A stretch of 64,000 nucleotides of DNA from positions 40,391 through 104,390 of the forward strand of contig NZ_LGCI01000003.1 of the NCBI RefSeq assembly GCF_001281525.1, in the 5' to 3' direction. Position numbers and translations under genes: made by a program. The notes under the pieces are model-generated. The model did not search any database and was not told the origin of the DNA. It saw only the letters and a list, made by a program, of their open reading frames with translations. The DNA comes from Lysinibacillus macroides. GTDB taxonomy: Bacteria > Bacillota > Bacilli > Bacillales_A > Planococcaceae. Shown piece after piece: positions 8,348 through 29,692 of the stretch (position 1 is its first letter; every line of letters begins with the position of its first letter).

Positions 8348-11300
8348 TTATTCAGCTAGCTGTTCGTTACCATCCTTGTCTACATAATAAGCATGTGAAC
8401 TTGCTGCTTCTTCAATCTCTTTAAATGCCCAGTGCGTCATTTTGACATCTGGGAAGCTTGGTGTAGTGACACCATGTAATGGACCACGCTCAAACATACG
8501 ATTAATCATGACCACTGCCTGTGCACGTGTTAAGGCAGCGTTTGGTGCGAAGCGGTCATTGTCTAACCCATTGATAATGCCTGCTGCACGGTTTGCTTCA
8601 ATAATCCACTGTGCCCAGTGTCCTTTTGTATCCTTGAATGTTAAAGCTATATTTTCTTCCACAGCCAGTTCTTTGAAGTTCGACACGACCGTTGCCATTT
8701 CCGCACGTGTAATATTCGCGCCTGCATGGAAGTTGCCTTCATTATCACCGTTCATGATACCCTGTTCCTTGACAAACGCAATCGCGCCTGCTGCTGGATG
8801 ATTGGTTTGGACATCTTTAAATGGGGCTTGCTTCACTTGTTCCTCTGTATAGCCTAAAATACGTGCTAGCATGAACGCTACTTGCGCGCGTGTTACGTTT
8901 TTATCTGGACCAAATGTGCCATCTGGGAAGCCCTGGATATACGCGGCATGTGTGCCCTCTGCTTCCTTGGCTACCTGAATAATCGTAAAGGTACTGAATT
9001 TTTCTACTGTAAAGCGCAGACCTGGTTTGCCATCCTGCATCGTTACCACTTCTGGATGAACAACCTTTTTCTCCCCATCTGTATGCTCAATAAATACAGC
9101 TAAACTAGCTAAAAAGGCCTGACGCTCTGCTGCATTTGTTGGCAAAGTCACATCACGCAATGGTAATGTCACCACGACTGGACGAGACGATAAGTTGGTT
9201 TCAATCGTCATTGGACGTGCGACCACATGCACATCATTACTTGCCAATGTTTCACGTACCACACGCTCTGCACGGGCACGCTCCTCAATTGCCTGACGTT
9301 CGCTTTCTTTTTTCACAGGTACTAAGCGGAAATAGAAGTTATCGTCTACCCCATTCATCGAGCTATTTGGAATGGCAATATGGGCATTGTCTGTCGCAAT
9401 TTCTAAATCTAAACCATTGTCACGTAAAACTTGTAAGGCTTCCTTTGGTACTTCTACTGTTGCTTGATCGACAGCGTCCTGTACATCTGGAATAACGATA
9501 CGTGCAATGGTGTTGCCAATCTCTTTTGCCTTTGCCACTGCTTCTTGTGCTTGCTCAGCTGTTAAATTGACAAAGTCTGTCACACGCCCATCTGGATGGG
9601 TTGTACGCTCAATTTCTACCGTTGTTTTTTCCAGTGGATGTTCACCATCCACCTCTAAATCCACATGGATGATTGTTTTTGTCTCTTTTGGTGCTTCTGG
9701 TGTCGGGGTTGGTGCTGGCGTTGTTGTACCGCCACCGCCGCCCGTATTGCCACTGCTACCAGAACTCGCTTCACGGTATACCTTAATTGTATACTGTTTC
9801 ACATTGCCATTTGCATCCGTTACTGTCATAACCATCGTATTCCAGCCTACCTGAAGCGGGATTTGATTGAGTGTACCTGGCTGCCCATTCACAGTTGTTG
9901 TCACGGTTGCACCATTTTCGACTGGAATTGCTGTAAAGTCAATGCTGGCTGTTGGATAGCCAACATTCATTGTGTAATCCGTTGTATCCGTTTGGAAGCT
10001 TGGGCTTAACGAGCCACCTGTTGATAGTGTTAAAGCACTTAACCCCTGTCCAACGTTTACAAGGGCATTTTGTGCCGCTGTTAATTGGGCGAGTGCCTGA
10101 TTTACCTCTTCTTGTGTAGCTGTTGGATTATTAATGACCTTTTTCGCCGTTGCTAGCTTTGCCTGATATTCCTGCCAAGTTGCTGGCGTGTAGGGTCCCG
10201 CTGCTTCTACCTGTGGTTCCTCGCCCACTTTGGCAATCAGAGGTGCTTTATCTACTGTAGCTACTGTAAACGTATGTTGCTTGGTAACCGTTTGCTGACC
10301 ATTTGTTGCTGTCGCTGTGACGGTGTATGTGCCATTTGGTAAATCTACTGGCGGTGTATAGCTCCATTCACCCGTTACGGGGTCCACATCGACATTTACA
10401 TCTACTTCCACTACTTCACCATTTGGCTCTTTTGTGAGTGTAATCGTCACTGTCGATGGTGTCGTTGTCACATCTACTGTTCCACTGATTTCTGGTCGTG
10501 GATTCGTTGTGACTGTGTCTGGCTGTGTAATTTGGAATGCTGCGCTATATGGATTTTCTACTTCTTTATTAAAGGCTGCTACCTTCGCTCCATTTGTGCC
10601 TTCTAATGAGCCTGTACCATCATATTCTACCGTTACTGTTTTTCCAGTTACATCTGGTGTGTTCGGGAATGTTAACACAAGTTTACCGTCTACTACTTCA
10701 AAATTTGTTGGTGTTACTTTCACACCATCTACATCAATTGCAAAGCCTGTTAAATCCGTTAATGTAATGTCTTTATTGAAGTCCACTGTGATTTTATTGC
10801 CACTTGCTGTTTGCTCAAGCAAGGCTGTTGTTGGTTGTGGCACTACTTTTACTAACTTCCCACGTGCTTCTTGTAATTTTCCTAGTGCTACGTCTACCTG
10901 TTCCTGTGTTGCTGTTGGATTTGTTAAAATAAGTGTTGCTTCCTCTAACGCCTCCTCTAGCTCTTGCCAGCTTTCTGGTGTATATTCTTCCTCAACTAAC
11001 GCATCAACCTCATCTACTTCTTTGTGAAGGTCTGTTTTATCCACAAATACCACTTTTTTAGATGCGCTTAATATAAATGCTTCATCTCCTGGCATACCGC
11101 CATACTCGATAACATAGCCTCTAACAGTATTATTTGTTGGAGAATAGTCATTCCATTTTCCAGCTTTAGCTCCTGGACCAAAGATATGTGCTACATACTC
11201 TATATTGCCAGAATTATTTGGTTCAACAGTTCCATCCCAATTTGTATAAGCGTTATTTACTGGTCCTGGATTTAGATCTGCGGGAGTTCCTGCACGATAG

Positions 11301-13462
11301 CCATCATAGAAAGCTAAGCCTTTTCCATCATCAGCTAAACCTTCTGGACCTGTTACCCACCGCCAATCACCACGCATTGTTTTTTCAGGGCTTGCCTCTG
11401 TACGGTTAATATCTTTTGCACCAAGCCAACCAAGACCTTGTGTTTTATCCTTTACAAACGTATTTTCCTCCTCAGTTGTAATTGTTACTAAATAACCTTT
11501 ACGTCCAAAATAACTTTTTCCTTCTGCTTGTATCTTTGCCGCAAACCAGGAAATCGTTGCCTGAGTATCTATATAATCATAGAAATGCCCATTTGCACTG
11601 TAGGCTAAGGCGTTTCCTAAGGTAAAGATAATATTACGCTCACTACGATCAGTTGAGGTTGTCATAAATTGAACATTACGCAAAGCCTCTTGATATTCTG
11701 CAATAGACGCTGCACCGCTTAATTTTAAAATTCCTGTTGTACTATCATAATTACCTGTGATATTAGGTGTATTCGTAAATATAAGACTATCTCCTGATTT
11801 GAAATTCTCAATTGCTACGTTTGCACCGTTTAAATCATTCTCATAGCCTGCTAAAACAGTTGAATCAATTGTTACACCTGTGTCTATTATTATAGGAACA
11901 TTCTCAAGTACATTATTGATAACGACCGCTACTGTATCTCCAGGAGATGTTGTAATAGCAGCTCCAGTTATCGGTTGTTTCAAATTGTCCCTTGCTGCAT
12001 TTAAATTAGCTAATGCTGTTGCTACCTCATCAATTGTTTTACTAACATCTTCTAATACAACCTTTGCCTCTGCTAACGCTTGTTTAAAGACTGTCCATGT
12101 TGACACTGTATAGTCTGTCTCTTGTAAGTTTTCATCATTAATCTCATTAACACGTGTTTCTAAAGCTTTTTTATCCACATGTTTTACAAACGTAAAGAAT
12201 CCACCATTTACAAACTCACTATTTGGTAATGTGACTGTGCCTGTTGTTTGGTTAAGTGGATATGCTTTTGTTGTTGCTTTAGGGAAGTTATTATTAGATT
12301 CATGCACATAAAGATATAACTGATAGTCGGCTGATTTTGCTTCTTCTACTTGTAATGTAATTTCTTCGTTAGTCCATATTCCATTTTTCTCTACTTTAAA
12401 CACACGTGGCATAATCTTTGTTGTATTTGTGGTAGATTCAGTATGAGCAATTGTAGAAGGTAAATCCGTATTAGGAATTTCTATCGAGTAAAGACCTGAT
12501 TGGTCATTATCACTAAATGTAAAGAACGTTAAGTTATTGTCGATTTCATTGCTATTATCTTTATTCGATACTTCAACTGTATCACCAAGTGCAATCGTCA
12601 CAAACGCACCCTCTGCTTGTGATTTAGATTGCTTTTGATACAATGCACCATTATTATCTCGACCAATACCTGTGATACGGTGACCATAACCTGTGTTCTC
12701 ACTTGCTGTCCACATGTTTGTGCTACCATTACTCGCTACATAATCAGTCGCATTACCATTTTCATCTTTAATTGTTAAACCATATTTTAAGCCGAGATAG
12801 CTGTTGACTTTTTGACGTTCTAAAGGAGTAAGCTCTCTGTTATATAATAATACTTCGCCTAGTATACCGTCGTAGCGTTTGGAATGAGAAGAGCCTAGGT
12901 AATAAGCTCCTTCAGTAGCTGATGATGCATAGTTAATCGTATTAGTTGAATTTTCTTCTAAATTTATACCATTAACAGTGAGCTTCATTTTATCTCCACT
13001 ACTAATTACATTTAGAACATCGAGTTTTCCTAATTCAGGATTTTCATAACTAATACTTCCCGTACTACTAAAATACGTTCTAATATTTGATGACGTATAC
13101 TCCGTATTATTGGCTACATATGCACCACCGAATTCCCATGGTATCCCTTTGTCGCTATTGCCTGCGTTAGCGCCTACGGGTGTTTGCACAGAGAATATCT
13201 CTCTTGCGTTACTACTATCAAAGGTAGTCCACGGTGCAGAATATTGACCATCAAGTGCATTGCCATCTGCCCTAAAGCTTCTTAACCCGTAATTGAAATT
13301 AATGAGTGATTGAGGATCATTCTTTTTAATTTTTCTCCCACTATAATTATCCCATACTCTATCTATAGCTAAATCTTGCAGTTTTTCAACAGGAACTCCA
13401 TCACCTAACTCTGAATCTACACTTTTCTCTACGTCCACCCATGAAATTAGTCCATCACTCAC
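8348..13462 (-). CDS. Giant S-layer-homology surface protein (main body; signal peptide out of frame)
   Basis: About 1704 residues in this frame. Order of domains: concanavalin/LamG-like region (about 1-235, ending LERQKVNSYLGLKYGLTI); FIVAR-like helices (about 427-495, 810-870 and 1070-1134); a cadherin-like beta domain with FKSGDSLIFTNTPNITGNYD (about 497-622); a C-type-lectin-like domain (about 624-792); a SwmB-like domain (about 874-970); an Ig-like domain (about 972-1067); a cadherin-like sandwich (about 1140-1230); a Gly/Thr/Pro linker; and three C-terminal SLH motifs (about 1500-1675, e.g. IQGFPDGTFGPDKNVTRAQ). SLH motifs bind pyruvylated wall polymer, so it is an S-layer-associated adhesin-like protein. 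The GTG at 13462 is only the first start in frame. The true start is probably 13614, with a one-base indel near 13470-13473. Confidence 0.85.
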   Translation of the reverse strand: MSDGLISWVDVEKSVDSELGDGVPVEKLQDLAIDRVWDNYSGRKIKKNDPQSLINFNYGLRSFRADGNALDGQYSAPWTTFDSSNAREIFSVQTPVGANAGNSDKGIPWEFGGAYVANNTEYTSSNIRTYFSSTGSISYENPELGKLDVLNVISSGDKMKLTVNGINLEENSTNTINYASSATEGAYYLGSSHSKRYDGILGEVLLYNRELTPLERQKVNSYLGLKYGLTIKDENGNATDYVASNGSTNMWTASENTGYGHRITGIGRDNNGALYQKQSKSQAEGAFVTIALGDTVEVSNKDNSNEIDNNLTFFTFSDNDQSGLYSIEIPNTDLPSTIAHTESTTNTTKIMPRVFKVEKNGIWTNEEITLQVEEAKSADYQLYLYVHESNNNFPKATTKAYPLNQTTGTVTLPNSEFVNGGFFTFVKHVDKKALETRVNEINDENLQETDYTVSTWTVFKQALAEAKVVLEDVSKTIDEVATALANLNAARDNLKQPITGAAITTSPGDTVAVVINNVLENVPIIIDTGVTIDSTVLAGYENDLNGANVAIENFKSGDSLIFTNTPNITGNYDSTTGILKLSGAASIAEYQEALRNVQFMTTSTDRSERNIIFTLGNALAYSANGHFYDYIDTQATISWFAAKIQAEGKSYFGRKGYLVTITTEEENTFVKDKTQGLGWLGAKDINRTEASPEKTMRGDWRWVTGPEGLADDGKGLAFYDGYRAGTPADLNPGPVNNAYTNWDGTVEPNNSGNIEYVAHIFGPGAKAGKWNDYSPTNNTVRGYVIEYGGMPGDEAFILSASKKVVFVDKTDLHKEVDEVDALVEEEYTPESWQELEEALEEATLILTNPTATQEQVDVALGKLQEARGKLVKVVPQPTTALLEQTASGNKITVDFNKDITLTDLTGFAIDVDGVKVTPTNFEVVDGKLVLTFPNTPDVTGKTVTVEYDGTGSLEGTNGAKVAAFNKEVENPYSAAFQITQPDTVTTNPRPEISGTVDVTTTPSTVTITLTKEPNGEVVEVDVNVDVDPVTGEWSYTPPVDLPNGTYTVTATATNGQQTVTKQHTFTVATVDKAPLIAKVGEEPQVEAAGPYTPATWQEYQAKLATAKKVINNPTATQEEVNQALAQLTAAQNALVNVGQGLSALTLSTGGSLSPSFQTDTTDYTMNVGYPTASIDFTAIPVENGATVTTTVNGQPGTLNQIPLQVGWNTMVMTVTDANGNVKQYTIKVYREASSGSSGNTGGGGGTTTPAPTPTPEAPKETKTIIHVDLEVDGEHPLEKTTVEIERTTHPDGRVTDFVNLTAEQAQEAVAKAKEIGNTIARIVIPDVQDAVDQATVEVPKEALQVLRDNGLDLEIATDNAHIAIPNSSMNGVDDNFYFRLVPVKKESERQAIEERARAERVVRETLASNDVHVVARPMTIETNLSSRPVVVTLPLRDVTLPTNAAERQAFLASLAVFIEHTDGEKKVVHPEVVTMQDGKPGLRFTVEKFSTFTIIQVAKEAEGTHAAYIQGFPDGTFGPDKNVTRAQVAFMLARILGYTEEQVKQAPFKDVQTNHPAAGAIAFVKEQGIMNGDNEGNFHAGANITRAEMATVVSNFKELAVEENIALTFKDTKGHWAQWIIEANRAAGIINGLDNDRFAPNAALTRAQAVVMINRMFERGPLHGVTTPSFPDVKMTHWAFKEIEEAASSHAYYVDKDGNEQLAE

Positions 13463-15500: not shown

Positions 15501-17423
15501 TTATTTTGTCTTAGCTACTAGTTGCTCCACAATGAAATCTAGCTGTTTCGATAATGAATAGATGTCGTTGTAGTAACAAAAACCAAAATCCATTTCAATA
15601 AGCCTTCCTTCTTGAATGGCAGGAATATTAGACCAAACTGGATGATCCGTTAAATCCACCATGCCTTCATAGGATGAACGGATCACGTAATCACCTGCAT
15701 AATCCGTTAATACTTCTAAAGAAACATCAATTGCCTCATCGGTGTTGTTTTTATTATCAATTTTCTGTTGAATAATGTCTGGTGCTTTCATTCCTAAGTA
15801 CTCATAAATAGCTTGGGAACCGCGTCCAAAGGTATAACTTGTCACAACTGACATTTTCCCTTTGCCGCCTTCCATAATACTAACCGTTTTATCTGAAATA
15901 CCTGCCTCTTTTAATTTCTCTTGACTATCCTCTACCTTTGTATAGAAATTAACTAAAAGCTCTTTTGCTTCTTTCTCTTTCCCTAGTACTTCACCAATCT
16001 TCGTTAAACGTTCATCTAGTGATATTGAGAAATCAATCATAACAGTAGGTGCAATTCTTTGCATTTGATCATAAAGCTCATCCTTACTTGGAATAATGAT
16101 GACATCAGGTTTTAATTGGATCACTGCCTCAACATTTGGTTCAAACCATTCACCTAAACTTTCAACTGTTTTTAATTCTTCCTCAAATGCTGCTCCCTCT
16201 TGTATTTTAGAGGAGCCCACTGGTGTCACATCAACTGCTAGTACATCACCTGTATAATACATCACCACAACTCGCTCAGGGTTAACGGGTATTTCTACGT
16301 CTCCTTTCATAGTAGAGACAATTTTTGTTTGTGATTCGCTGACTGCTTGAGTGGTAGAAGCTTGTTTTTCCCCGCCTCCTGCATTGGTTGATGCTCCACT
16401 ACTGCAAGCACTTAATAAAAGCGTCAGGCATAGAAAGAGTGTTGCAATAGCTGATAATCCTCTTTTATTCATCGGTTCATACTTCCTTTCATTATATTGA
16501 TAACCATTCTCAATATAATCTTGGAAGCTCCAATCAACAATGGAGTATCTTTCAGACATTGAAGGACTATCTTTTACTAGATGCCTTACTTGTTCCTTTT
16601 GACGGTATTTTGTGGGTGAAACGCCCACTCTCTTTTTGAAAAGTCTACTAAAATAATAAACATCGCTATAGCCGACACCCATAGCGATATCGCGTAAGCT
16701 AGCATTTGTCTTCTCAAGCAAAATTGAAGCTTTTTCAATACGTAACTGAATGAGATACTCGATTGGACTACATCCTATTTGTTGCTTGAATTGAATGGAT
16801 AAATGAGACGGACTATAGCGTAGCGCCCTCGCAATTGATTCTAAAGTCAATGGCTGTGCATAGTTTTCTTCTAAATAGGCTTTAATTTGACTAGGGACAT
16901 TCAGCTTTTGAATGTTACCACTGTCCTGATCTAATTGCATGAAAATGTCATTCAATAATTGATAGAATAGCGATTTAACGGTAAATTTGCTAAGGTTATT
17001 AGCATTTTCCCACTTCTTATACATATAATATATTTTTTCAAACATTGTAATAGGTGAGTTAGGAACAAGACTATATTGATAGTTGAAAGGATTATTTCTT
17101 TGCATGGCACTTGCTATCATTTTATTTGAGGTTAAAGGAACGGAAGCTCGATAAAATATTAAAAAATATTCAAAGCCTTTGTCTGTAGCCACTATTTGTA
17201 AAGTAGAGCCCTTTCCACCATGAATAAGATGAAAGCCTTCTAATGTGTAGTTTGTTAAATCGATCTGGACTTCCGCACCACCACCTGTGGCATAAAGAAA
17301 CATATTAGCAGGTATTTTAAATGTTTTTCCTATTTCCTCAGGTTTTAATAGCTCATATCTTATATCGAGCACTTTGATCGTTGCATGATTCCAAAGAAAT
17401 AGAAACTCCTCTTTTGGTAGCAT
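15501..17423 (-). CDS. AraC regulator fused in frame to a siderophore-binding lipoprotein (copy 1)
   Basis: 640 residues in one open frame. The N-terminal sensor-like part is about 1-170. The AraC double helix-turn-helix is about 184-283 (YSPSHLSIQFKQQIGCSP; DIAMGVGYSDVYYFSRLFKKRVGVSPTKYR). Instead of stopping, the frame continues through a linker that contains a Fur-like box (16498-16512, translated ENGYQ) and an AAAGGAAG ribosome-binding site. It then enters a complete lipoprotein starting at Met318 (ATG 16472) with a signal peptide and lipobox LLLSAC (Cys340). A Peripla_BP_2 ferric-siderophore-binding domain runs to the end (VVVMYYTGDVLAVDVTPVG). Either a membrane-spanning regulator-sensor or two products (full length plus an internal lipoprotein of 323 residues) can be made. 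Start: GGAAGG 12 bases upstream, with a separate Fur-like box at 17472-17486. Confidence 0.88.
   Translation of the reverse strand: MLPKEEFLFLWNHATIKVLDIRYELLKPEEIGKTFKIPANMFLYATGGGAEVQIDLTNYTLEGFHLIHGGKGSTLQIVATDKGFEYFLIFYRASVPLTSNKMIASAMQRNNPFNYQYSLVPNSPITMFEKIYYMYKKWENANNLSKFTVKSLFYQLLNDIFMQLDQDSGNIQKLNVPSQIKAYLEENYAQPLTLESIARALRYSPSHLSIQFKQQIGCSPIEYLIQLRIEKASILLEKTNASLRDIAMGVGYSDVYYFSRLFKKRVGVSPTKYRQKEQVRHLVKDSPSMSERYSIVDWSFQDYIENGYQYNERKYEPMNKRGLSAIATLFLCLTLLLSACSSGASTNAGGGEKQASTTQAVSESQTKIVSTMKGDVEIPVNPERVVVMYYTGDVLAVDVTPVGSSKIQEGAAFEEELKTVESLGEWFEPNVEAVIQLKPDVIIIPSKDELYDQMQRIAPTVMIDFSISLDERLTKIGEVLGKEKEAKELLVNFYTKVEDSQEKLKEAGISDKTVSIMEGGKGKMSVVTSYTFGRGSQAIYEYLGMKAPDIIQQKIDNKNNTDEAIDVSLEVLTDYAGDYVIRSSYEGMVDLTDHPVWSNIPAIQEGRLIEMDFGFCYYNDIYSLSKQLDFIVEQLVAKTK
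16498..16512 (-). promoter_or_regulatory. Fur-like box inside the AraC-lipoprotein coding frame (copy 1)
   Basis: The minus strand reads TGAGAATGGTTATCA, close to the Bacillus 7-1-7 Fur core TGATAATNATTATCA. It lies 26 bases before the internal lipoprotein ATG (16472), with AAAGGAAG between. The box is translated as part of the fused protein. Confidence 0.75.
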
Positions 17424-17471: not shown

Positions 17472-17486
17472 TGATAATCATTCTCA
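17472..17486 (-). promoter_or_regulatory. Fur-like box upstream of AraC-lipoprotein fusion copy 1
   Basis: TGATAATCATTCTCA on the given strand is a near-perfect 7-1-7 Fur core. It lies about 50 bp upstream of the start at 17423. Iron repression of this gene is inferred. Confidence 0.8.
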
Positions 17487-17559: not shown

Positions 17560-19470
17560 TTATTTTTCCTTTGCATGCTGTACTAGCATTTCTGTCACTT
17601 CTTCGATCTGTCCTAGGATTGAAATAGGATCTGAAAACCAGAAGCTCCAGCCATCAATTTCAAAAATTTGTTCATTTTGTACAGCATCTAACGTTTTCCA
17701 AACTGGTTCGTTTTTATAATCATATGTTTCTGTCGCTTTATCAACAGCTATAAAAATATAATCACCCGCATAATTGGGAAGTAATTCAGGTGATAATTCC
17801 AGCCACGGCTTTTCAGGATCAATATCCTCTACTACTTTTGCGGGTAGAGTTAGCCCAAGCCCATCATAAAATGATCGCCCTGTATAACCATTACCATATA
17901 ATGTTATGTTATTTTTTGCGCCACCAGCAAAAATCGTCACTGTTTGATCCTTACCAATAATACCTTGAACGGTTTGTCTGGCTTTTTCTACTCGTTGATT
18001 ATAGTCATCCAACCAAGCTTTCACTTCTTCCTCTTTGTCTAAAATTTTACTAAACTCCTCCAATGTTACATCCATTTCTAAATTAAAGGGTATTAAGACT
18101 GTAGGCGCAATTTTGGCATATGCTTCGTATTTCTTATCGTCTCCAGTAATAATAAGGTCAGGGTTTAACTCAACTACTGCTTCAAGGGAATCCTCAAAAT
18201 AAGTAATTCCTTCATTATGCTCTTTCAGATAAGGGCTTTTCATATAAAGCTCCTGTGTTCCTACCGGTTTAATGCCCATAGTTAATAAAAAACCTGGATA
18301 ATAATCAGTTACGATACGCTTGGGATCAACAGGAATCTCTACATCCCCCTTCACAGTGGATACAATTTTTGTTGTCGACTGCACTTCCGTTGACTCATTA
18401 GCTGATGCTTTTGTTTCTCCATTAGTAGAAGTGGGAATAGCAGTACCAGAACATGCACTAAGCAATAAAGTGAAGCATAGCAATAAAGTCGCCATCATAG
18501 AGGACTTTGTTTTTTTAGTCATCGGTAAATCTCCTTTTAACTTATATTGATAATAATTATCATTATCAATATAAGGTCGTAGCCACTTTTTATCATTAGA
18601 CAAAGCAAGCCGATACATAGGACGATACGATTTTTGCTTAGCTGGCTGTTGTTTAAATTGCATTGGCGTTTGCCCGCTGTATTTTTTGAAGATACGAATA
18701 AAATAAGAAACATCTTCGTAGCCAACACTCGATGCTATCTCTTGTATACTTAAAGGTGTATGTAATAATAACTGTTGTGCTTTTTGAATTCTGGTATAGA
18801 TAAGATAATCAATGATACTTCTACCCGTTTTCTGCTTAAATTGCTTCGCTATATAGGGCACACTATAATTCAACATTTGGGCAAGCGATTCTCGTGTGAT
18901 CGGCTGATAATAGTATTCTTCTATATAATTTTGAATCTGCTCCACAAGGTCTGGTTGCCGAACAATCACCTGCTGTTGATATAACTGCTGCAAAAGTTCA
19001 TAAATGAATTGATAAAAAAGGGCTTTGACATGAAAATGCGCTAGCTTGCCCTGTTTGAGCCATTCCTGATACATACTTTCAGCTTTTTGCTGTAACGTAA
19101 GTGCATTGGAAACTTGAAAAACATATTGAAGCTGAAAAGGCTTTTCACGTTCCCACAACGGTAGCAAACCTTTTTTATGAGGAAGAGGTAGGGTTGCTTT
19201 ATAGAGAATTAAATAATACTCCACACTATCTTCTACAGCACTGATATGTAGGCAACTCCCTTTACCAATATGAGCTATATAAAAATTCTCTATCTTATAG
19301 GGTTTACTGTCTAGCAATATATTAGCTTTTCCTTTTATCGTGTACAAAAAACCGCTAGCTGGTAAACGATACGAGCTATGCTGTTCATCATATTGCATCC
19401 TTATAAAACGAATATCAAACACTTGAATGGAGGCAGCTTTCCACAGAAGGATATGATCATCTATATTCAC
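17560..19470 (-). CDS. AraC regulator fused in frame to a siderophore-binding lipoprotein (copy 2)
   Basis: 636 residues, paralogous to the gene at 15501 with the same architecture. The sensor part is about 1-170 and the AraC helix-turn-helix about 180-280 (YSVPYIAKQFKQKTGRS; IASSVGYEDVSYFIRIFKKYSGQTPMQFK). The linker is translated from a nearly ideal Fur box (18549-18567) and an AAAGGAG ribosome-binding site (KGD in the protein). Then comes an internal Met317 (ATG 18522), a signal peptide, lipobox LLLSAC (Cys340) and a Peripla_BP_2 siderophore-binding domain (IVTDYYPGFLLTMGIKPVG). The lipobox Cys is residue 340 in both copies. The start is GTG with AGAAAGGTG upstream. The two genes are tandem, 89 bp apart, each with its own upstream Fur-like box. 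Full-length and internal products are both possible. Confidence 0.88.
   Translation of the reverse strand: MNIDDHILLWKAASIQVFDIRFIRMQYDEQHSSYRLPASGFLYTIKGKANILLDSKPYKIENFYIAHIGKGSCLHISAVEDSVEYYLILYKATLPLPHKKGLLPLWEREKPFQLQYVFQVSNALTLQQKAESMYQEWLKQGKLAHFHVKALFYQFIYELLQQLYQQQVIVRQPDLVEQIQNYIEEYYYQPITRESLAQMLNYSVPYIAKQFKQKTGRSIIDYLIYTRIQKAQQLLLHTPLSIQEIASSVGYEDVSYFIRIFKKYSGQTPMQFKQQPAKQKSYRPMYRLALSNDKKWLRPYIDNDNYYQYKLKGDLPMTKKTKSSMMATLLLCFTLLLSACSGTAIPTSTNGETKASANESTEVQSTTKIVSTVKGDVEIPVDPKRIVTDYYPGFLLTMGIKPVGTQELYMKSPYLKEHNEGITYFEDSLEAVVELNPDLIITGDDKKYEAYAKIAPTVLIPFNLEMDVTLEEFSKILDKEEEVKAWLDDYNQRVEKARQTVQGIIGKDQTVTIFAGGAKNNITLYGNGYTGRSFYDGLGLTLPAKVVEDIDPEKPWLELSPELLPNYAGDYIFIAVDKATETYDYKNEPVWKTLDAVQNEQIFEIDGWSFWFSDPISILGQIEEVTEMLVQHAKEK
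18549..18567 (-). promoter_or_regulatory. Near-consensus Fur box inside the coding frame (copy 2)
   Basis: The minus strand reads GATAATGATAATTATTATC, 18 of 19 matches to the classical GATAATGATAATCATTATC box. It precedes AAAGGAG and the internal lipoprotein ATG at 18522, yet lies wholly within the open AraC frame (translated DNDNYYQ). Confidence 0.85.
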
Positions 19471-19530: not shown

Positions 19531-19545
19531 TGATAAACATTCTCA
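19531..19545 (-). promoter_or_regulatory. Fur-like box upstream of AraC-lipoprotein fusion copy 2
   Basis: TGATAAACATTCTCA matches the 7-1-7 Fur core at 12 of 14 informative positions and lies about 60 bp upstream of the start at 19470. Confidence 0.7.
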
Positions 19546-19614: not shown

Positions 19615-20559
19615 TTATTTTTTATTCGTTAGCCAGTTTGTTAATTCTTCTACCTGAGCCAACACGGCTGTTGGGTCATAATACCATGAACGCTCCTCAG
19701 GCCAAACATAAAGATGATCGTTTTTTACGGCTGGCAGGCTACCCCATATTGGATCCTTCTTAAAATCTTCAACTGTGCGATCATCTGAAGTCAAAATAAT
19801 GTAGTCTCCTGCATAATCTGCCAGTACCTCCTCGGAAATTTCAGCCCACTGCTTTTCCATAATTTCATCCGCTACTTTAGAAGGTGGTTTGCGACCAAGA
19901 GCCTGATAGACGGGTTGTCCACCACGTCCAAAATTATCACCATATGCATAATACGTTTTGCCTGCATCCTCTATAATAGAGAAGCTTGCATCCTTTGGAA
20001 TAATCGCATCTACCTGTACTTTGGCATCGGCAATCTTTTGATCATATTGCGCCAGCCAATCCTTAGCTTCTTGCTCTTTGCCAAGCAACTCACCGAAATA
20101 AGTAAGTTCTTCGTGTGCATCCTTCAATTCACCATAAGGTATGACAACTGTAGGAGCAATTTTACTTAAAGCATCATAATTTTCCCCATTGCCAGTAATA
20201 ATCAAGTCCGGTTTGAGCGCTATAATCTTCTCAATGGACGGTTTCCCATAATCACCTATTTCTTCTACATCCTTTAATGCATCCTTTAAATAATAGTTTT
20301 CAAGAGCCAATCCAGGCGCTCCCACAGGTTTCACATCTAATACAAGTAAACTAGCGATATACTCCTCTGCTACAATACGCTGTGGATTAGTCGGAATAAC
20401 AATTTCACCATTTGTTGTCTGAACCGTTTTTGTTTCTGCTTCTTTTATATCTTGTTCTGCAGTTGGACTAGCGACCTTTTCCTTTTCTCCACAAGCCGTT
20501 AACAATAGCAGTAATAATAGAAATAGTGGTGCTAAGAATTTTCTATTTTGCTTCAGCAA
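19615..20559 (-). CDS. Ferric-siderophore-binding lipoprotein
   Basis: 314 residues from the preferred TTG start at 20559, which has GGAGGG seven bases upstream. A longer in-frame ATG at 20604 lies inside the Fur-like box and is unlikely. The signal peptide is FLAPLF plus a poly-Leu core, with lipobox LLLTAC (Cys23). A Peripla_BP_2 domain follows (RIVAEEYIASLLVLDVKPVG; IALKPDLIITG; SKIAPTVVIPYGEL), as in FeuA/FhuD-like proteins that capture iron-siderophore outside the membrane. The upstream neighbour is a Btr-type regulator on the same strand. There is no permease or ATPase gene beside it, so it must dock on a transporter encoded elsewhere. Confidence 0.88.
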   Translation of the reverse strand: MLKQNRKFLAPLFLLLLLLLTACGEKEKVASPTAEQDIKEAETKTVQTTNGEIVIPTNPQRIVAEEYIASLLVLDVKPVGAPGLALENYYLKDALKDVEEIGDYGKPSIEKIIALKPDLIITGNGENYDALSKIAPTVVIPYGELKDAHEELTYFGELLGKEQEAKDWLAQYDQKIADAKVQVDAIIPKDASFSIIEDAGKTYYAYGDNFGRGGQPVYQALGRKPPSKVADEIMEKQWAEISEEVLADYAGDYIILTSDDRTVEDFKKDPIWGSLPAVKNDHLYVWPEERSWYYDPTAVLAQVEELTNWLTNKK

Positions 20560-20584
20560 TCTTTTTCCCTCCATACATATCAAT

Positions 20585-20599
20585 TGATAATTATTCTCA
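20585..20599 (-). promoter_or_regulatory. Fur-like box upstream of lipoprotein gene 19615-20559
   Basis: TGATAATTATTCTCA, a close 7-1-7 Fur core, lies about 25 bp before the preferred TTG start. Confidence 0.78.
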
Positions 20600-20661
20600 T
20601 TCATTGTAGAAGAGGGTGAAAAATTTGTCTATGCACAAGAATGATTTACCATCTTGCACTT

Positions 20662-22224
20662 TTATGATGTCAGTACCTTCATTAATTCCTTCAATTGAGC
20701 TGCTGTAGATAACGGATCATAGCCATAAAATAACTCGTACTGATTGATAAAATACACTCGCTGCTTTTGTACAGCCTCCATTGTCCGCCATTCTTCTGAA
20801 TGTAACAGCTTGATAAGGCGTTTTTTAGCTAGATCGTTAGTAGGAAGAGCTGTGATAAAAATATAATCAGCCGGATAATGAGCGATCTCTTCAAGCTCTA
20901 CTGTAAAAAACCCCGTATGCTCAATTTTTTCAGCAATAATTGCATCTGGACGCCGAAATCCTAAATCCTCATATAATATATGACTTCCCCTACCATAACT
21001 GCTGTCTATACAATAAGCTGCGGCATTATTGCCTAATTCCCAAACAATTGCTGTACCTCTTGAACCGATCTGTTGATCTAACAGAGAGTTACAGGCAAGG
21101 ATTTGCTCCTCATATTGCTGTAGCCAGCTACCAAATCGCTCTTGCCTATTGACAATATTAGAAATAAGACGAAATTGATCTCGCCAGCTTAATTGCTGAC
21201 AGGGTAGTTCGACTACTGGTGCTAATGCTAGTAAGGATTGTTTGTCATGCCCCTTGTTATAGTTAATAATGACATCTGGGCAGGCTGCTGTGATTTCCTG
21301 ATAATTGGAGACCACATTGTGCTCATAACCTATCAATTTATGCCGAGATGGTACTGTTTTTATATTTTCTATAAATGGAGAAAATACGCCTAATTCTGGA
21401 ATAATACCGAGAGCCAGTAAGCATGCTGTATGGTTTGTGTTAAGGGTAATAACACGTTTTGGCTTCTGATAATAGACCTTAGGCGATATACCAACCAGCT
21501 CTTTAAACTTTCGACTTAAATACGTCCCCTCCCTATAGCCTACATTCTGCGCAAGATCATCTAGTTTGGGCATATCATAAAGTAGTTTTTTCTGTGACGC
21601 TCGTATTCTCAGCATTGTTAAATATTTACTGAATGTATAGCCTGTATGTTTACGGAATACACGTGAAAAATGTTCTGGGCTTACTTGTGCTTTTGTAGCC
21701 ATTTGCTCCCTTGTTAAATCCTCATGGAAATGTATGGAAATATAGTCTACTACCTTTTGAACCCACATTCCCTCTTGTTGCTGCTTACTAGCCCATAGTT
21801 CGCTATAAACAGTTTCTAATAGTTCAGCGAATAATTTTTGTAAACGAAAAGGATGATTGTGCTCAAAAACTCTCGCTTCTTTTTCTAATGCTATTGCTAT
21901 ATCTATAAGCTTGGATGAACCTTTTGCAATCAAAGCTATATCATGGGCTATTTTTGCTCCGTATGGACGATATTGAAGAGCAAGCCCTGCAATTCGATTC
22001 GGTTCTAATAGCTGAAAATCATCAGGATGATTCCATAGTAAAACTGAGCGTGCATGAAGTTCTCTATACCTACCCTGAAAGCAATATTTTACATGGCCAT
22101 CATAAACAATGATGATCCAAGGCCATAAAGTGGATTCTTCATTGTGATGGAGCATTTCTTCTAATCGCATGATTCGAATAGGCTGATAAAAAGTATAGGG
22201 TAGTAAACGATCATCTCTAGTCAT
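20662..22224 (-). CDS. Btr-type AraC regulator with C-terminal siderophore-binding domain
   Basis: 520 residues from ATG 22224, with GGGAGA upstream; a GTG six codons earlier overlaps that site. The N-terminal sensor or cupin-like part is about 1-155. The AraC helix-turn-helix is about 165-265 (VSPEHFSRVFRKHTGYTFSKY; AQNVGYREGTYLSRKFKELVGISPKVYY). A Peripla_BP_2-like domain runs from about 270 to the end (RVITLNTNHTACLLALGIIPELG; SYGRGSHILYEDLGFRRPD; YPADYIFITALP). There is no signal peptide or lipobox, so the whole protein is cytosolic, as in B. subtilis Btr, which senses bacillibactin and activates feuABC. It is divergent from the lipoprotein gene at 22319, with a shared Fur-like box. Its targets are probably adjacent binding-protein genes. 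Confidence 0.88.
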   Translation of the reverse strand: MTRDDRLLPYTFYQPIRIMRLEEMLHHNEESTLWPWIIIVYDGHVKYCFQGRYRELHARSVLLWNHPDDFQLLEPNRIAGLALQYRPYGAKIAHDIALIAKGSSKLIDIAIALEKEARVFEHNHPFRLQKLFAELLETVYSELWASKQQQEGMWVQKVVDYISIHFHEDLTREQMATKAQVSPEHFSRVFRKHTGYTFSKYLTMLRIRASQKKLLYDMPKLDDLAQNVGYREGTYLSRKFKELVGISPKVYYQKPKRVITLNTNHTACLLALGIIPELGVFSPFIENIKTVPSRHKLIGYEHNVVSNYQEITAACPDVIINYNKGHDKQSLLALAPVVELPCQQLSWRDQFRLISNIVNRQERFGSWLQQYEEQILACNSLLDQQIGSRGTAIVWELGNNAAAYCIDSSYGRGSHILYEDLGFRRPDAIIAEKIEHTGFFTVELEEIAHYPADYIFITALPTNDLAKKRLIKLLHSEEWRTMEAVQKQRVYFINQYELFYGYDPLSTAAQLKELMKVLTS

Positions 22225-22248
22225 TTTTATTATATCTCCCACTCATTG

Positions 22249-26850: not shown

Positions 26851-28473
26851 ATGGAAGACAAAAAATCAGCTTCTATTCACAATGATTTACTATTTCATTT
26901 AGAGGATATTGACTGTATTTCACAGAGCTATCCGTTTATCTCGACTTCTCATCATATGATGATACTTTTTATAGATGGCTGTGGGACATTAACGATTGAT
27001 GATAGTCCCTATTTGGTGACGAAGGGGAAAATTTTCCTCGTACAGCCTCAGTCTATGATTGATTTATCGGAGCTCAGTAAAGAATTCCGTTTCTATAAAA
27101 TAGCATTTACAGCTTTCCAGTTAAAACAAGGGGCCCCTTCACCCTATCTAGGTCCCATTTTTTCTGAGGAAGTAGAGTATACCCTTTACCCAAATACGCG
27201 CTTTATTCGTCTCATAGAAGATCTACCTAACTTAGATTATCTTAAGCAACAGGGGGCCTTGTATGAACTATTAAATTTACTATTCGAACATCAGCTTCAT
27301 ATGAACTACCAATTAACGATGACAAAGGCCGTTGAGGAGACCATCAACTATATACATAGCTATTATCAACAGCCCTTAACAGTGAAAAAGCTAGCGGAAC
27401 TTGCCCATATCGCTCACTGGCAATATAGTACAATCTTTCAAACTTTAACAGGAAAGAAACCGCTAGATTATATTACAGATTTACGTCTTACAAAGGCCAA
27501 GGAATTATTGCTACAAACAAATGAACCGTTAAAGGCTATTGCACAGCGGGTTGGATTTGATGATGAATATTACTTTAATCGCCGCTTCCGACAAGTGGTT
27601 GGGATTCCGCCAAAACAGTTTGCACGACAATCTAAACAAAAAACTGTTGTAAAAGATTGGACAGGACACGAGGTAGCCATTCCTCGCTCACCACATCGTG
27701 TTATTTATCATGGAGAAACGTTTGGGGATATGTTGATTTTTGATGTGCAACCAATAGGTGGTGACAAAAACTCTATTAGTAAATCCTTCTATAAAAACCA
27801 TGTTCCTTATATTCAAGATGTTGCCTTTCCAATCAATCTTGAAAAATCTTCGAAGCTGAACCCTGATTTAATTATCTTTACAAATAATGACGAGCAGCAA
27901 TATCAAGCACTATCTTCTATTGCACCAACGATTACCCTAAATTCCTGGGATTCATTAGAGGAACGGGTTCTTTTATTAGGACGGTGGCTTAGCCAACAAC
28001 AGCGTGCAGAAGATTGGCTAGAACACTTTAAAACCCAAGAAAAAACGATGTGGCAGCAGCTTCAAACAGTTGTAGAGCCTGGTGAATCGGCATCTGTTTT
28101 GACTTTTGATCATGGCAAACGCCTTTTTATTATGGGCTGTACAGGTCTATCCACTGCCCTTTTCCATCCAGATGGATTTCAGCCTCACCCACAAGTCAAA
28201 AAACTACTTCAAGCAGGCGAGGGGTATAGAGAAATACCAATAGATCACTTACCTCAGTATGCTGGTGACCGCATCTTTATGTTGTTATCTGATAAACCCG
28301 AATCGCAAATGGCTACGATTGAATTGATTAATAGCGATATTTGGAAAGGACTCCCTGCTGTACAAACTAACCATGCTTATTTAGTGGATGCAACAAAGTG
28401 GAATTACGGAGATGCCTTTACAAGAGAGAAGTTACTCGGTGCATTGCCAAAGCTATTGGTTACTGCCAGGTAA
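26851..28473 (+). CDS. Btr-type AraC regulator with C-terminal siderophore-binding domain
   Basis: 540 residues. The N-terminal cupin-like part is about 1-155 (ILFIDGCGTLTIDDSPYLVTKGKIFLVQP). The AraC helix-turn-helix is about 165-265 (IAHWQYSTIFQTLTGKKPLDY; AQRVGFDDEYYFNRRFRQVVGIPPKQF). A Peripla_BP_2-like domain extends from about 272 to the end (RVIYHGETFGDMLIFDVQPIG; YAGDRIFMLLSD; WKGLPAVQTNHAYLVD). There is no signal peptide, so it is a cytosolic ligand sensor like Btr. Its C-terminal domain resembles the exported binding protein just upstream. Translation starts at ATG with TAAGGAAGTG upstream. The next regulator (28508) has no Fur-like box of its own and is probably co-transcribed. Confidence 0.88.
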   Translation: MEDKKSASIHNDLLFHLEDIDCISQSYPFISTSHHMMILFIDGCGTLTIDDSPYLVTKGKIFLVQPQSMIDLSELSKEFRFYKIAFTAFQLKQGAPSPYLGPIFSEEVEYTLYPNTRFIRLIEDLPNLDYLKQQGALYELLNLLFEHQLHMNYQLTMTKAVEETINYIHSYYQQPLTVKKLAELAHIAHWQYSTIFQTLTGKKPLDYITDLRLTKAKELLLQTNEPLKAIAQRVGFDDEYYFNRRFRQVVGIPPKQFARQSKQKTVVKDWTGHEVAIPRSPHRVIYHGETFGDMLIFDVQPIGGDKNSISKSFYKNHVPYIQDVAFPINLEKSSKLNPDLIIFTNNDEQQYQALSSIAPTITLNSWDSLEERVLLLGRWLSQQQRAEDWLEHFKTQEKTMWQQLQTVVEPGESASVLTFDHGKRLFIMGCTGLSTALFHPDGFQPHPQVKKLLQAGEGYREIPIDHLPQYAGDRIFMLLSDKPESQMATIELINSDIWKGLPAVQTNHAYLVDATKWNYGDAFTREKLLGALPKLLVTAR

Positions 28474-28507: not shown

Positions 28508-29692
28508 ATGAAAACGGAAAGTAGAACAGATACGACAACTCAAATATCACTAAAGGATATTCGAGATTATATTGCTAAAAACCATCATCAACCTCTCACA
28601 ATTGAGCATCTAGCACTCATTTCTGGTCTGAGTTCCAGCTACTTTGGAGAGGCCTTTAAAAAGGCATTCGGTCAAAGTGCCACAGATTATTTAACGGCGC
28701 TACGCATTGGACATGCCAAGCAATTACTGCGTGAAACCGATTTATTACTTCGTGAGATTGCTAGAAAAGTTGGTTACAGTGACGAATTTTATTTTAGTCG
28801 AAAATTTAAAAAGGAAGTTGGGATTTCACCTTCTGCTTATAGTAAAATGGCTCGCCAGCGAATTTCTACTTTTTCGGTATCCGCTACTGGAAACTTATTA
28901 GCGCTTGGTATCATACCAGTAGCAGCTCCGCTGAATGCTAAATGGAGTCCTTATTATTACAATCATTACCAAGAGAAAATTCCAGTGCATGTTAATATAT
29001 TTGATGCAGAATCAGAGGACAACTTCAAAAAATTAGCCTCTGCTAAGCCAGACATTCATATTTTTCAAGAGGAACCCTCCCTCTCCATGCTTGATTGGCT
29101 TCAAACAATCGGCATCAAAAATGTCTATATACAAGCAAAGGATTGGCGAACACAACTGAGAGAAATAGCTGTAGCTGTCAAAAAGCAAAGCGTGGGTGAG
29201 CATTTCATTCAAACATATGAACAAAAGGTATTACAGGCAAGGTTAGAAATTAATCAAGTTACTGGAAACGATACGTTTGCCGTTCTTCGTTTATGCGGTG
29301 ATCAATTATTTTTATATTGTAATAAAGGGATTCAGGATGTACTGTTTACAGATTTGCAGCTGCGTCCTGTCAATGCGCAACAACAAACATATAACGAGCT
29401 TATTACACTTGATCGGCTAGTCAATTTAAACCCTGACCGTTTGCTATTTATCATTTGTCCAGATTCGCCAACTCGAAATTATTGGCTTACTTTACAATAC
29501 CTTGATCGATGGAAAGAGCTCCATGCCGTAAAAAATGGACATGTCTATGTTTTACCTTCGAATCCTTGGTTTGAATACTCAGCTATTGCTATAAACCGAA
29601 TGCTAGATGAAATGTTGCTTATGCTAACCGGAAAAAATCCAAATCCTTTTCCTGTCCCCGTCCATGGTAACGTATCTGACGGTGATTTATAA
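28508..29692 (+). CDS. Short Btr-type AraC regulator (helix-turn-helix first, then siderophore-binding domain)
   Basis: 394 residues. It lacks the N-terminal cupin-like part found in its paralogues: the AraC helix-turn-helix begins almost at once (about 15-115; SGLSSSYFGEAFKKAFGQSATDY; ARKVGYSDEFYFSRKFKKEVGISPSAY). The Peripla_BP_2-like domain follows directly (about 120-375; ISTFSVSATGNLLALGIIPVAAPLN; LNPDRLLFIICPDS; WKELHAVKNGHVYVLP). There is no signal peptide. It sits 34 bp behind the previous regulator with AAGGGG upstream of its ATG, and before the lipoprotein-esterase pair it probably controls. Loss of the N-terminal part could be ancestral or secondary. Confidence 0.85.
   Translation: MKTESRTDTTTQISLKDIRDYIAKNHHQPLTIEHLALISGLSSSYFGEAFKKAFGQSATDYLTALRIGHAKQLLRETDLLLREIARKVGYSDEFYFSRKFKKEVGISPSAYSKMARQRISTFSVSATGNLLALGIIPVAAPLNAKWSPYYYNHYQEKIPVHVNIFDAESEDNFKKLASAKPDIHIFQEEPSLSMLDWLQTIGIKNVYIQAKDWRTQLREIAVAVKKQSVGEHFIQTYEQKVLQARLEINQVTGNDTFAVLRLCGDQLFLYCNKGIQDVLFTDLQLRPVNAQQQTYNELITLDRLVNLNPDRLLFIICPDSPTRNYWLTLQYLDRWKELHAVKNGHVYVLPSNPWFEYSAIAINRMLDEMLLMLTGKNPNPFPVPVHGNVSDGDL

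Follow-up and report, generated by a model that had tools for sequence, protein, structure and literature searches.

An AraC regulator joined in one reading frame to a siderophore-binding lipoprotein, with a probable nested start, in Bacilli

Two joined genes in the Lysinibacillus window

The window, a 64,000-nucleotide stretch of Lysinibacillus macroides DNA, carries on its reverse strand a single frame (copy 1, 15501-17423) that is open from the ATG at 17423 for 640 codons and encodes a 640-residue protein composed of an AraC regulator, a signal peptide with lipobox and a siderophore-binding protein. The AraC half (16590-17423) comprises an N-terminal domain and a helix-turn-helix (HTH), with the best stretches of the Pfam models HTH_18 and HTH_AraC at residues 197-275 and 236-275. 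These models exceed their curated cut-offs in both copies of the gene in the window, which assigns them to the AraC/XylS class. The lipoprotein signal peptide (16404-16472) ends in the lipobox LSAC, whose cysteine, Cys340, is encoded at 16406-16404. C-terminal to this signal, as in siderophore-binding lipoproteins, lies the Peripla_BP_2 domain (residues 390-612), and the corresponding DNA (15501-16403, stop codon included) encodes a siderophore-binding domain of FhuD type with its N-terminal tail. In sequence the receptor half matches 3hxp (E 7.1e-33), and its fold resembles FhuD2 (4b8y) and YfiY (3tny), which by analogy only points to hydroxamate-like ligands. The first-pass annotation had described an AraC frame running without interruption through a Fur-type box and ribosome-binding site (RBS) into a lipoprotein. 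This is borne out over 640 codons without a stop, with the box at 16498-16512 and the lipobox cysteine at residue 340, and the window sequence has neither a stop codon nor a frameshift at 16472-16575, the defects it had named as fatal to that description.

Between the two halves, a series of signals is read as codons. A direct repeat with 22-bp spacing (16541-16570; ATAGTCCT at 16570-16563 and ATACTCCA at 16548-16541) is a probable AraC operator within coding sequence. It is followed by a weak -35-like element, TTGTTG (16535-16540, three of six positions), and, after 17 nt, by a -10-like TATATT (16512-16517) that supplies the codons for Tyr-Ile. The translated internal Fur-type box TGAGAATGGTTATCA (16498-16512), the RBS-like GAAAGGAAG (16482-16490) and an ATG (16470-16472), the start codon of a stand-alone lipoprotein, complete the series. 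A second Fur-type box, TGAGAATGATTATCA (17472-17486), lies 5' of copy 1 in the region of promoter 1. The Fur box consensus, TGANAATNATTNTCA, derives from work on B. subtilis. A generic promoter scan did not call the internal promoter of copy 1. Upstream, inside the AraC coding part and on the same strand, a 13-pair stem followed by TATTATTTTA resembles a terminator (16691-16659); shuffled versions of this region contain a mean of 0.1 such sites.

Copy 2 (17560-19470, reverse strand, 636 codons) is the adjacent gene, has the same architecture and is 37% identical to copy 1. Its direct repeat is weaker (18597-18626; ATCGTCCT at 18626-18619 and TTTGTCTA at 18604-18597), with a matrix score of 9.3 that is not above background. 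Its internal promoter reads ATGATA, 17 nt, TATATT (18568-18596), and its translated internal Fur-type box TGATAATTATTATCA (18548-18562) is a perfect consensus match. An internal RBS (18538-18531) and ATG (18522-18520) follow within 18520-18538, and a further Fur-type box, TGAGAATGTTTATCA (19531-19545), lies 5' of the gene.

Receptor domains are abundant in the remainder of the window, and no permease was found among the Pfam-scanned open reading frames, a subset of all of them. A third receptor gene (19615-20604, reverse strand) comes after a Btr-type regulator. Its first ATG precedes the Fur-type box AATGAGAATAATTATCAATTG, so its longest frame again translates a Fur box, and its true start is probably further downstream. 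Three frames combine AraC with a substrate-binding protein (AraC-SBP) and have the binding domain close after the HTH: 20662-22242 on the reverse strand, and 26851-28473 and 28508-29692 on the forward strand, the last without an N-terminal domain. The window also encodes a large surface protein of 1704 residues (8348-13462, reverse strand) with S-layer homology, FIVAR and cadherin-like domains.

Spread of the joined frame in Bacilli

The database search for AraC proteins with an internal lipobox, which the first-pass annotation had proposed, succeeded: the fetched loci contain 120 distinct open frames spanning the AraC and lipoprotein halves, in Bacilli. With the whole protein as query, matches were obtained in 19 of 32 genomes of the genus (E <= 1e-60), in 24 of 200 genomes at family level (E <= 1e-50; G150 has an unfused receptor only) and in 43 of 398 genomes at class level (E <= 1e-55), the last representing 11 of 145 genera and five families and including G495, where the match covers the receptor part only. 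Among named relatives, Lysinibacillus, Paenibacillus and a record labelled Bacillus sp. have full-length matches. Other members of the genus contain joined frames with 92-93% identity, Paenibacillus also has joined frames, and up to nine paralogous genes are found in one genome (G010). Among plasmids, matches were to the receptor half only, and none of six records reached 80% coverage.

As the collection of 120 frames had been picked for being open, the AraC half was also used alone as query. This search of the 398 class-level genomes, limited to six scored candidates in each, gave 121 matches at E <= 1e-38, and 116 of these fall in frames of 616 codons or more, which have room for both halves. 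In a search of six genomes, 35 matches were obtained at E <= 2e-35, of which 34 fall in frames of 609 codons or more, and beyond that threshold ordinary AraC proteins of other subfamilies emerge. The five exceptions at class level are broken or shortened rather than split. The frame changes within the receptor part in L177 and L213; in L214 it changes within the AraC part, and the receptor contains a stop; L211 combines a stop in AraC with a frame change between residues 276 and 338; and L212 is a 549-codon frame that aligns only to residue 506. Together with L037 and L174, all of these but L212 are counted as broken copies. The only clean split known is L165, in which the AraC gene ends before a separate lipoprotein gene. 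Its untranslated intergenic gap contains, as judged by eye, TTGCAA, 17 nt, TATATT, a Fur box, an RBS and an ATG. Ordinary two-gene AraC/receptor neighbours were seen at two loci of one genome, L106 (G000:C12:300200-303800) and L107 (G000:C9:81600-85200), and the AraC proteins there belong to another AraC subfamily.

Conserved DNA signals in the linker

Synonymous divergence was calculated for 276 non-independent pairs drawn from 94 of the 120 sequences. It falls from 0.85 in AraC to 0.30 in the linker ahead of the box and 0.011 within the box, then rises to 0.21 between box and internal Met, 0.69 across the signal and 0.79 across the receptor. We regard this test as strong evidence that the box is conserved as DNA. 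Synonymous profiles within several groups likewise have two troughs, one at the box and one about 10-15 codons upstream. The best linker box matches 10-12 of the 12 consensus positions in 120/120 frames, in an identical reading frame every time, although the box score taken alone is weak evidence, since means of 8.2 to 11.6 are already obtained when 33 representatives (at most 60% identical, drawn from frames collected as open) are shuffled synonymously. At single loci few shuffle tests reach p < 0.05 (box 4/33, RBS 3/33), because AT-rich codon use already favours such words. Combined, the box test gives p = 1.4e-4, and all 33 representatives lie above their shuffled mean. T is the last base of two-fold codons at 115 of 118 sites in the box, compared with 4032 of 5526 elsewhere; for representatives whose GC3 is at least 0.40, the counts are 32 of 34 and 1031 of 1641. 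Upstream of the gene, a box with at least 10 of 12 positions is present in 25/33, a count without a chance control. A Fur-type box at the promoter suggests candidate membership of the Fur regulon and a response to Fur. Conservation of the linker peptide for its own sake was considered and rejected: its motifs YIDNDNHYQY and SIV arise from translation of the Fur box, -10 and -35.

For alignment of the promoter, 26 representatives were anchored on the in-frame TAT before the box. The seven without a usable in-frame TAT were left out (L028, L021, L041, L105 and three L103 frames), while L100, which is anchored wrongly, and L030, a badly scoring member of the copy 2 group, were retained. The 26 have TATATT-like -10 words, and a TTG stands at exactly 17 nt in 19 of them, the next-best spacing accounting for seven. 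Just 5' of the -35, conservation peaks on two copies of ATnnTCCA with a spacing of 22 nt, at -53 and -31. At least five of six positions of a repeat half are matched in 18/26 at offset -53 and in 16/26 at -31, and in no more than four at the other offsets tested. One half encodes D-x-P and the other, in a different codon frame, S-I-V, so the halves are conserved as DNA and not on account of the protein.

A matrix built from the repeat in these 26 representatives gives the copy 1 linker by far the top score in the window, 25.7, with the second-best site at 15.8 (copy 1 was in the training set). Scores of at least 12 occur in 94 of 120 linkers, in contrast to 3/120 upstream regions and 5/120 remaining coding parts, and somewhere on the whole opposite strand, a much longer target, at 27/120 loci. 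Outside the training set, 53 of 65 linkers of the main type reach 12, most of them close homologues of training sequences, whereas the copy 2 group scores only 6.6-9.3. A pattern search of 21 genomes with one mismatch allowed returned 39 matches against nine in the reversed control. The majority, 24, lie outside joined genes and 15 within them, whereas four of the five perfect matches are in joined genes. The repeat is a probable AraC operator, from which AraC would activate the internal promoter.

A second clade (linker peptide NQLAQA) has a different arrangement, with a -35 that is mostly TTACAA or TTAATA, the Fur box in the spacer, a -10 of TACAAT or TATAAT at 17 nt and a start about 58 nt after the box. 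This clade lay outside matrix training, and its best repeat match falls in one register, directly before the -35, in 24/29 frames; 17/29 score at least 12, the 29 including three L028-group frames, which fail. Linkers of this clade (for example L086, L022, L024 and L103) also contain a block, AATCAGCTCGCGCAAGCA, after the Fur box, which encodes the peptide NQLAQA with low synonymous change and is perhaps part of the leader of the internal transcript.

At the internal start, a junction Met is found in 120/120 frames and lies 22-24 residues before the Cys in 106, its presence being due in part to the rule used, which accepts the first Met located 14 to 28 residues N-terminal to the Cys. The pairing energy of its RBS averages -9.0 kcal/mol in the 33 representatives compared with -3.0 kcal/mol for 456 other internal Mets, and -6 kcal/mol or lower is attained by 30/33 junction Mets but by 14% of the 456 controls. 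Twenty further joined frames were reduced to 17 by setting aside L204, which has no lipobox, and two above 80% identity. Among the 17, several of which are near-identical to one another and four of which have the Met only 14 residues before the Cys, the box, its frame and the Met are each present in 17/17 and the RBS in 16/17. The 11 that could be anchored have each repeat half in 9/11 and the TTG in 7/11.

Probable nested starts, alternatives and known systems

Our results point to one gene with two nested starts as the probable arrangement: AraC joined to the lipoprotein would be made from promoter 1, and the lipoprotein alone from the internal promoter, with that AraC as its probable activator and Fur as its probable repressor. 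Two proteins from one locus by nested starts had been offered by the first-pass annotation as its second possibility, and this is now strongly supported by conservation of the Fur box, RBS, ATG, -10 and -35 as DNA. That first reading did not include the probable AraC operator, the linker promoter with its 17-bp spacing, or the breadth of the family's distribution.

Promoter 1, with its own Fur box, would give the long protein, consisting of AraC activator, flexible linker, lipoprotein signal and siderophore-binding domain. With no stop between the halves, AraC is born only attached to a lipoprotein signal and receptor. Promoter 2, within the coding DNA of the linker, would give the lipoprotein alone. 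Its -35 is weak, it abuts the AraC-type 22-bp direct repeat and it overlaps the second Fur box. Activator-dependent promoters have weak -35 elements, and with operator-like repeats next to a poor -35 the simplest reading is that AraC activates the internal promoter and Fur acts as gate. The most likely course is that the AraC domain of the long protein binds the repeat and turns on promoter 2, so that a few regulator-receptors would lead to many plain receptors, while in plentiful iron Fur would close both promoters. Since its signal is that of an ordinary lipoprotein, the long protein, too, is probably lipidated and cleaved, after which AraC would either stay at the membrane on the signal stub or be freed later. 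More speculatively, the long transcript could be blocked by AraC bound within its own gene, or shortened by the terminator-like stem at 16691-16659. It is also conceivable, although we put this forward only tentatively, that a membrane-held AraC activator stays near its own gene, with the long regulator-receptors sampling ferric siderophore outside and switching on the nested promoter. If true, each of up to nine paralogues per genome might form a private cis-acting sensor-receptor loop, and release of AraC could be coupled to lipoprotein export through cleavage of the signal helix.

The fate of the long protein turns on its signal. The hydrophobic run before the Cys averages 15.8 residues in 33 fused proteins and 15.5 in 25 unfused receptors, and the fused signal is slightly less hydrophobic. 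A longer hydrophobic anchor adapted to a membrane sensor was looked for in this comparison of length and hydrophobicity and is not seen. The lipobox pattern stands between the halves in 117/120 frames and L011, with LNAC, keeps the Cys, which is therefore present in 118/120. On these features the signal of the joined proteins is an ordinary lipoprotein signal. Its length and the retained Cys favour lipidation and cleavage, so export followed by cleavage appears likelier than an uncleaved anchor, and for the same reasons a precursor or partly processed protein is favoured over an uncleaved sensor. In the latter, the whole long protein would persist in a ToxR-like layout with AraC inside and the receptor outside, and binding of ferric siderophore would alter AraC. 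We consider this rather unlikely, although it can coexist with a nested start and our confidence in the two overlaps. It would agree with the AraC half being almost always joined to a receptor frame, with the one hydrophobic helix (residues 323-338) that an AlphaFold2 model of copy 1 predicts between confident AraC and receptor domains, and with L094, L095 and the later locus L204, which keep the frame with the lipobox Cys gone. However, a signal as long as that of unfused lipoproteins, with hydrophobicity slightly lower rather than higher, and the Cys kept elsewhere argue against it, and the linker (283-323) and post-Cys tail (339-363) have pLDDT below 50, so that no rigid signal path is seen. 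The pTM of 0.47 means that the relative placing of the domains carries no meaning. In the 69-row alignment used for folding, from which L030, L088, L094 and L095 were omitted, Cys340 appears invariant because the Cys-lacking L094 and L095 had been left out. L204 (G320) is a 702-codon joined frame that lacks the usual internal Met as well as the Cys and retains, as judged by eye, a Fur-like box and a TTG-17-TATAGT promoter. Of the one-protein transmembrane siderophore sensor first proposed for this locus, the full-length product is supported by the frame kept open, and the uncleaved anchor appears the less likely part, given the ordinary signal and its Cys.

The joined frame could instead be a by-product: the products that count would be just the AraC domain and the stand-alone lipoprotein, and the absence of a stop would serve no purpose. 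The conserved DNA signals for a separate lipoprotein are consistent with this, as are the cleanly split relative L165 and a linker dN/dS in related pairs (0.48) that exceeds that of the AraC (0.14) and receptor (0.09) domains. We nevertheless judge it improbable. In the linker 5' of the box, in-frame stops are found in 0/33 of the diverged representatives, themselves from a set collected as open frames, but in 25/33 and 32/33 in the other two frames, with totals of 0, 47 and 101 in 876 codons; and in the AraC-only search the five matches outside the 116 long frames of 121 were damaged or shortened, not split. A linker frame kept open, with no stop that would let AraC be translated alone, supports a full-length product on sequence grounds.

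A cytosolic regulator of Btr type with a vestigial signal region is very improbable. The two Pfam domains are shared with Btr-type frames and Btr is the best NCBIfam model in 4/4 scanned proteins, but these score 75-126 bits against the Btr cut-off of 900, and lipobox, signal and internal start are conserved. A sequencing error, pseudogene or chance open frame can be dismissed for the window copies, for which no sign of one was found although broken copies exist elsewhere (the six listed above), since joined frames recur at 92-93% identity within the genus and again in Paenibacillus, and conservation in 120 frames refutes it.

Searches of the open-access PMC literature, PMC13293324 and PMC5467902 included, found no description of a joined AraC-lipoprotein layout. 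Of the genera compared in PMC13293324, Paenibacillus has the largest number of such receptor genes relative to siderophore clusters, and AraC is not mentioned in the available text of that study. If a gene caller reports a single long AraC protein, the receptor transcript, its control by Fur and the birth of the regulator at the membrane would all be overlooked. In our judgement it would be unusual in bacteria for one stretch of DNA to be conserved both as a protein linker and as operator, promoter, repressor site and RBS, and such double use recurs here across 120 collected genes in several families of Bacilli. The family is a clear test case for two questions: how a transcription factor can be coupled to a secreted lipoprotein, and how bacteria that scavenge siderophores operate many receptors without cross-talk.

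Btr (YbbB) of Bacillus subtilis, an AraC-SBP one-component activator of siderophore uptake, likewise unites AraC and Peripla_BP_2 in one protein in an iron context, and the joined family may work in a similar way, as a substrate-induced regulator with its receptor. Btr keeps its binding domain in the cytosol, with no signal between it and AraC, whereas the joined family has between its halves a lipoprotein signal, a lipobox with the junction Cys in 118/120, a promoter-like module, a Fur-type box and an internal start. Membership of the Btr equivalog (NF049932) is ruled out by this layout and by the scores of copies 1 and 2 (93.3 and 126.4 bits, below the cut-off of 900). The contrast with Btr-type frames drawn by the first-pass annotation holds within the window, where the binding domain of 20662-22242 begins six residues after the HTH (residues 258 and 264), which leaves no room for a signal.

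FhuD, FhuD2 and YfiY-type lipoproteins match the C-terminal half of copy 1 in sequence and fold and have an ordinary signal; in copy 1, by contrast, the receptor is encoded as the second half of a regulator gene. ToxR and CadC are membrane one-component regulators with a winged-helix DNA-binding domain. If uncleaved, the joined protein would have their layout of DNA-binding domain inside, one helix and sensor outside, but it has an AraC rather than a winged-helix domain, a lipobox at the end of the helix and an internal promoter, and the helix, although present, resembles an ordinary cleavable lipoprotein signal. AraC class II operators such as araI1-I2 are 21-bp repeats overlapping the -35. 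The repeat of copy 1, with a spacing of 22 bp, is likewise a direct repeat beside a weak -35, and differs from araI1-I2 in that this candidate operator lies inside the reading frame of the regulator itself.
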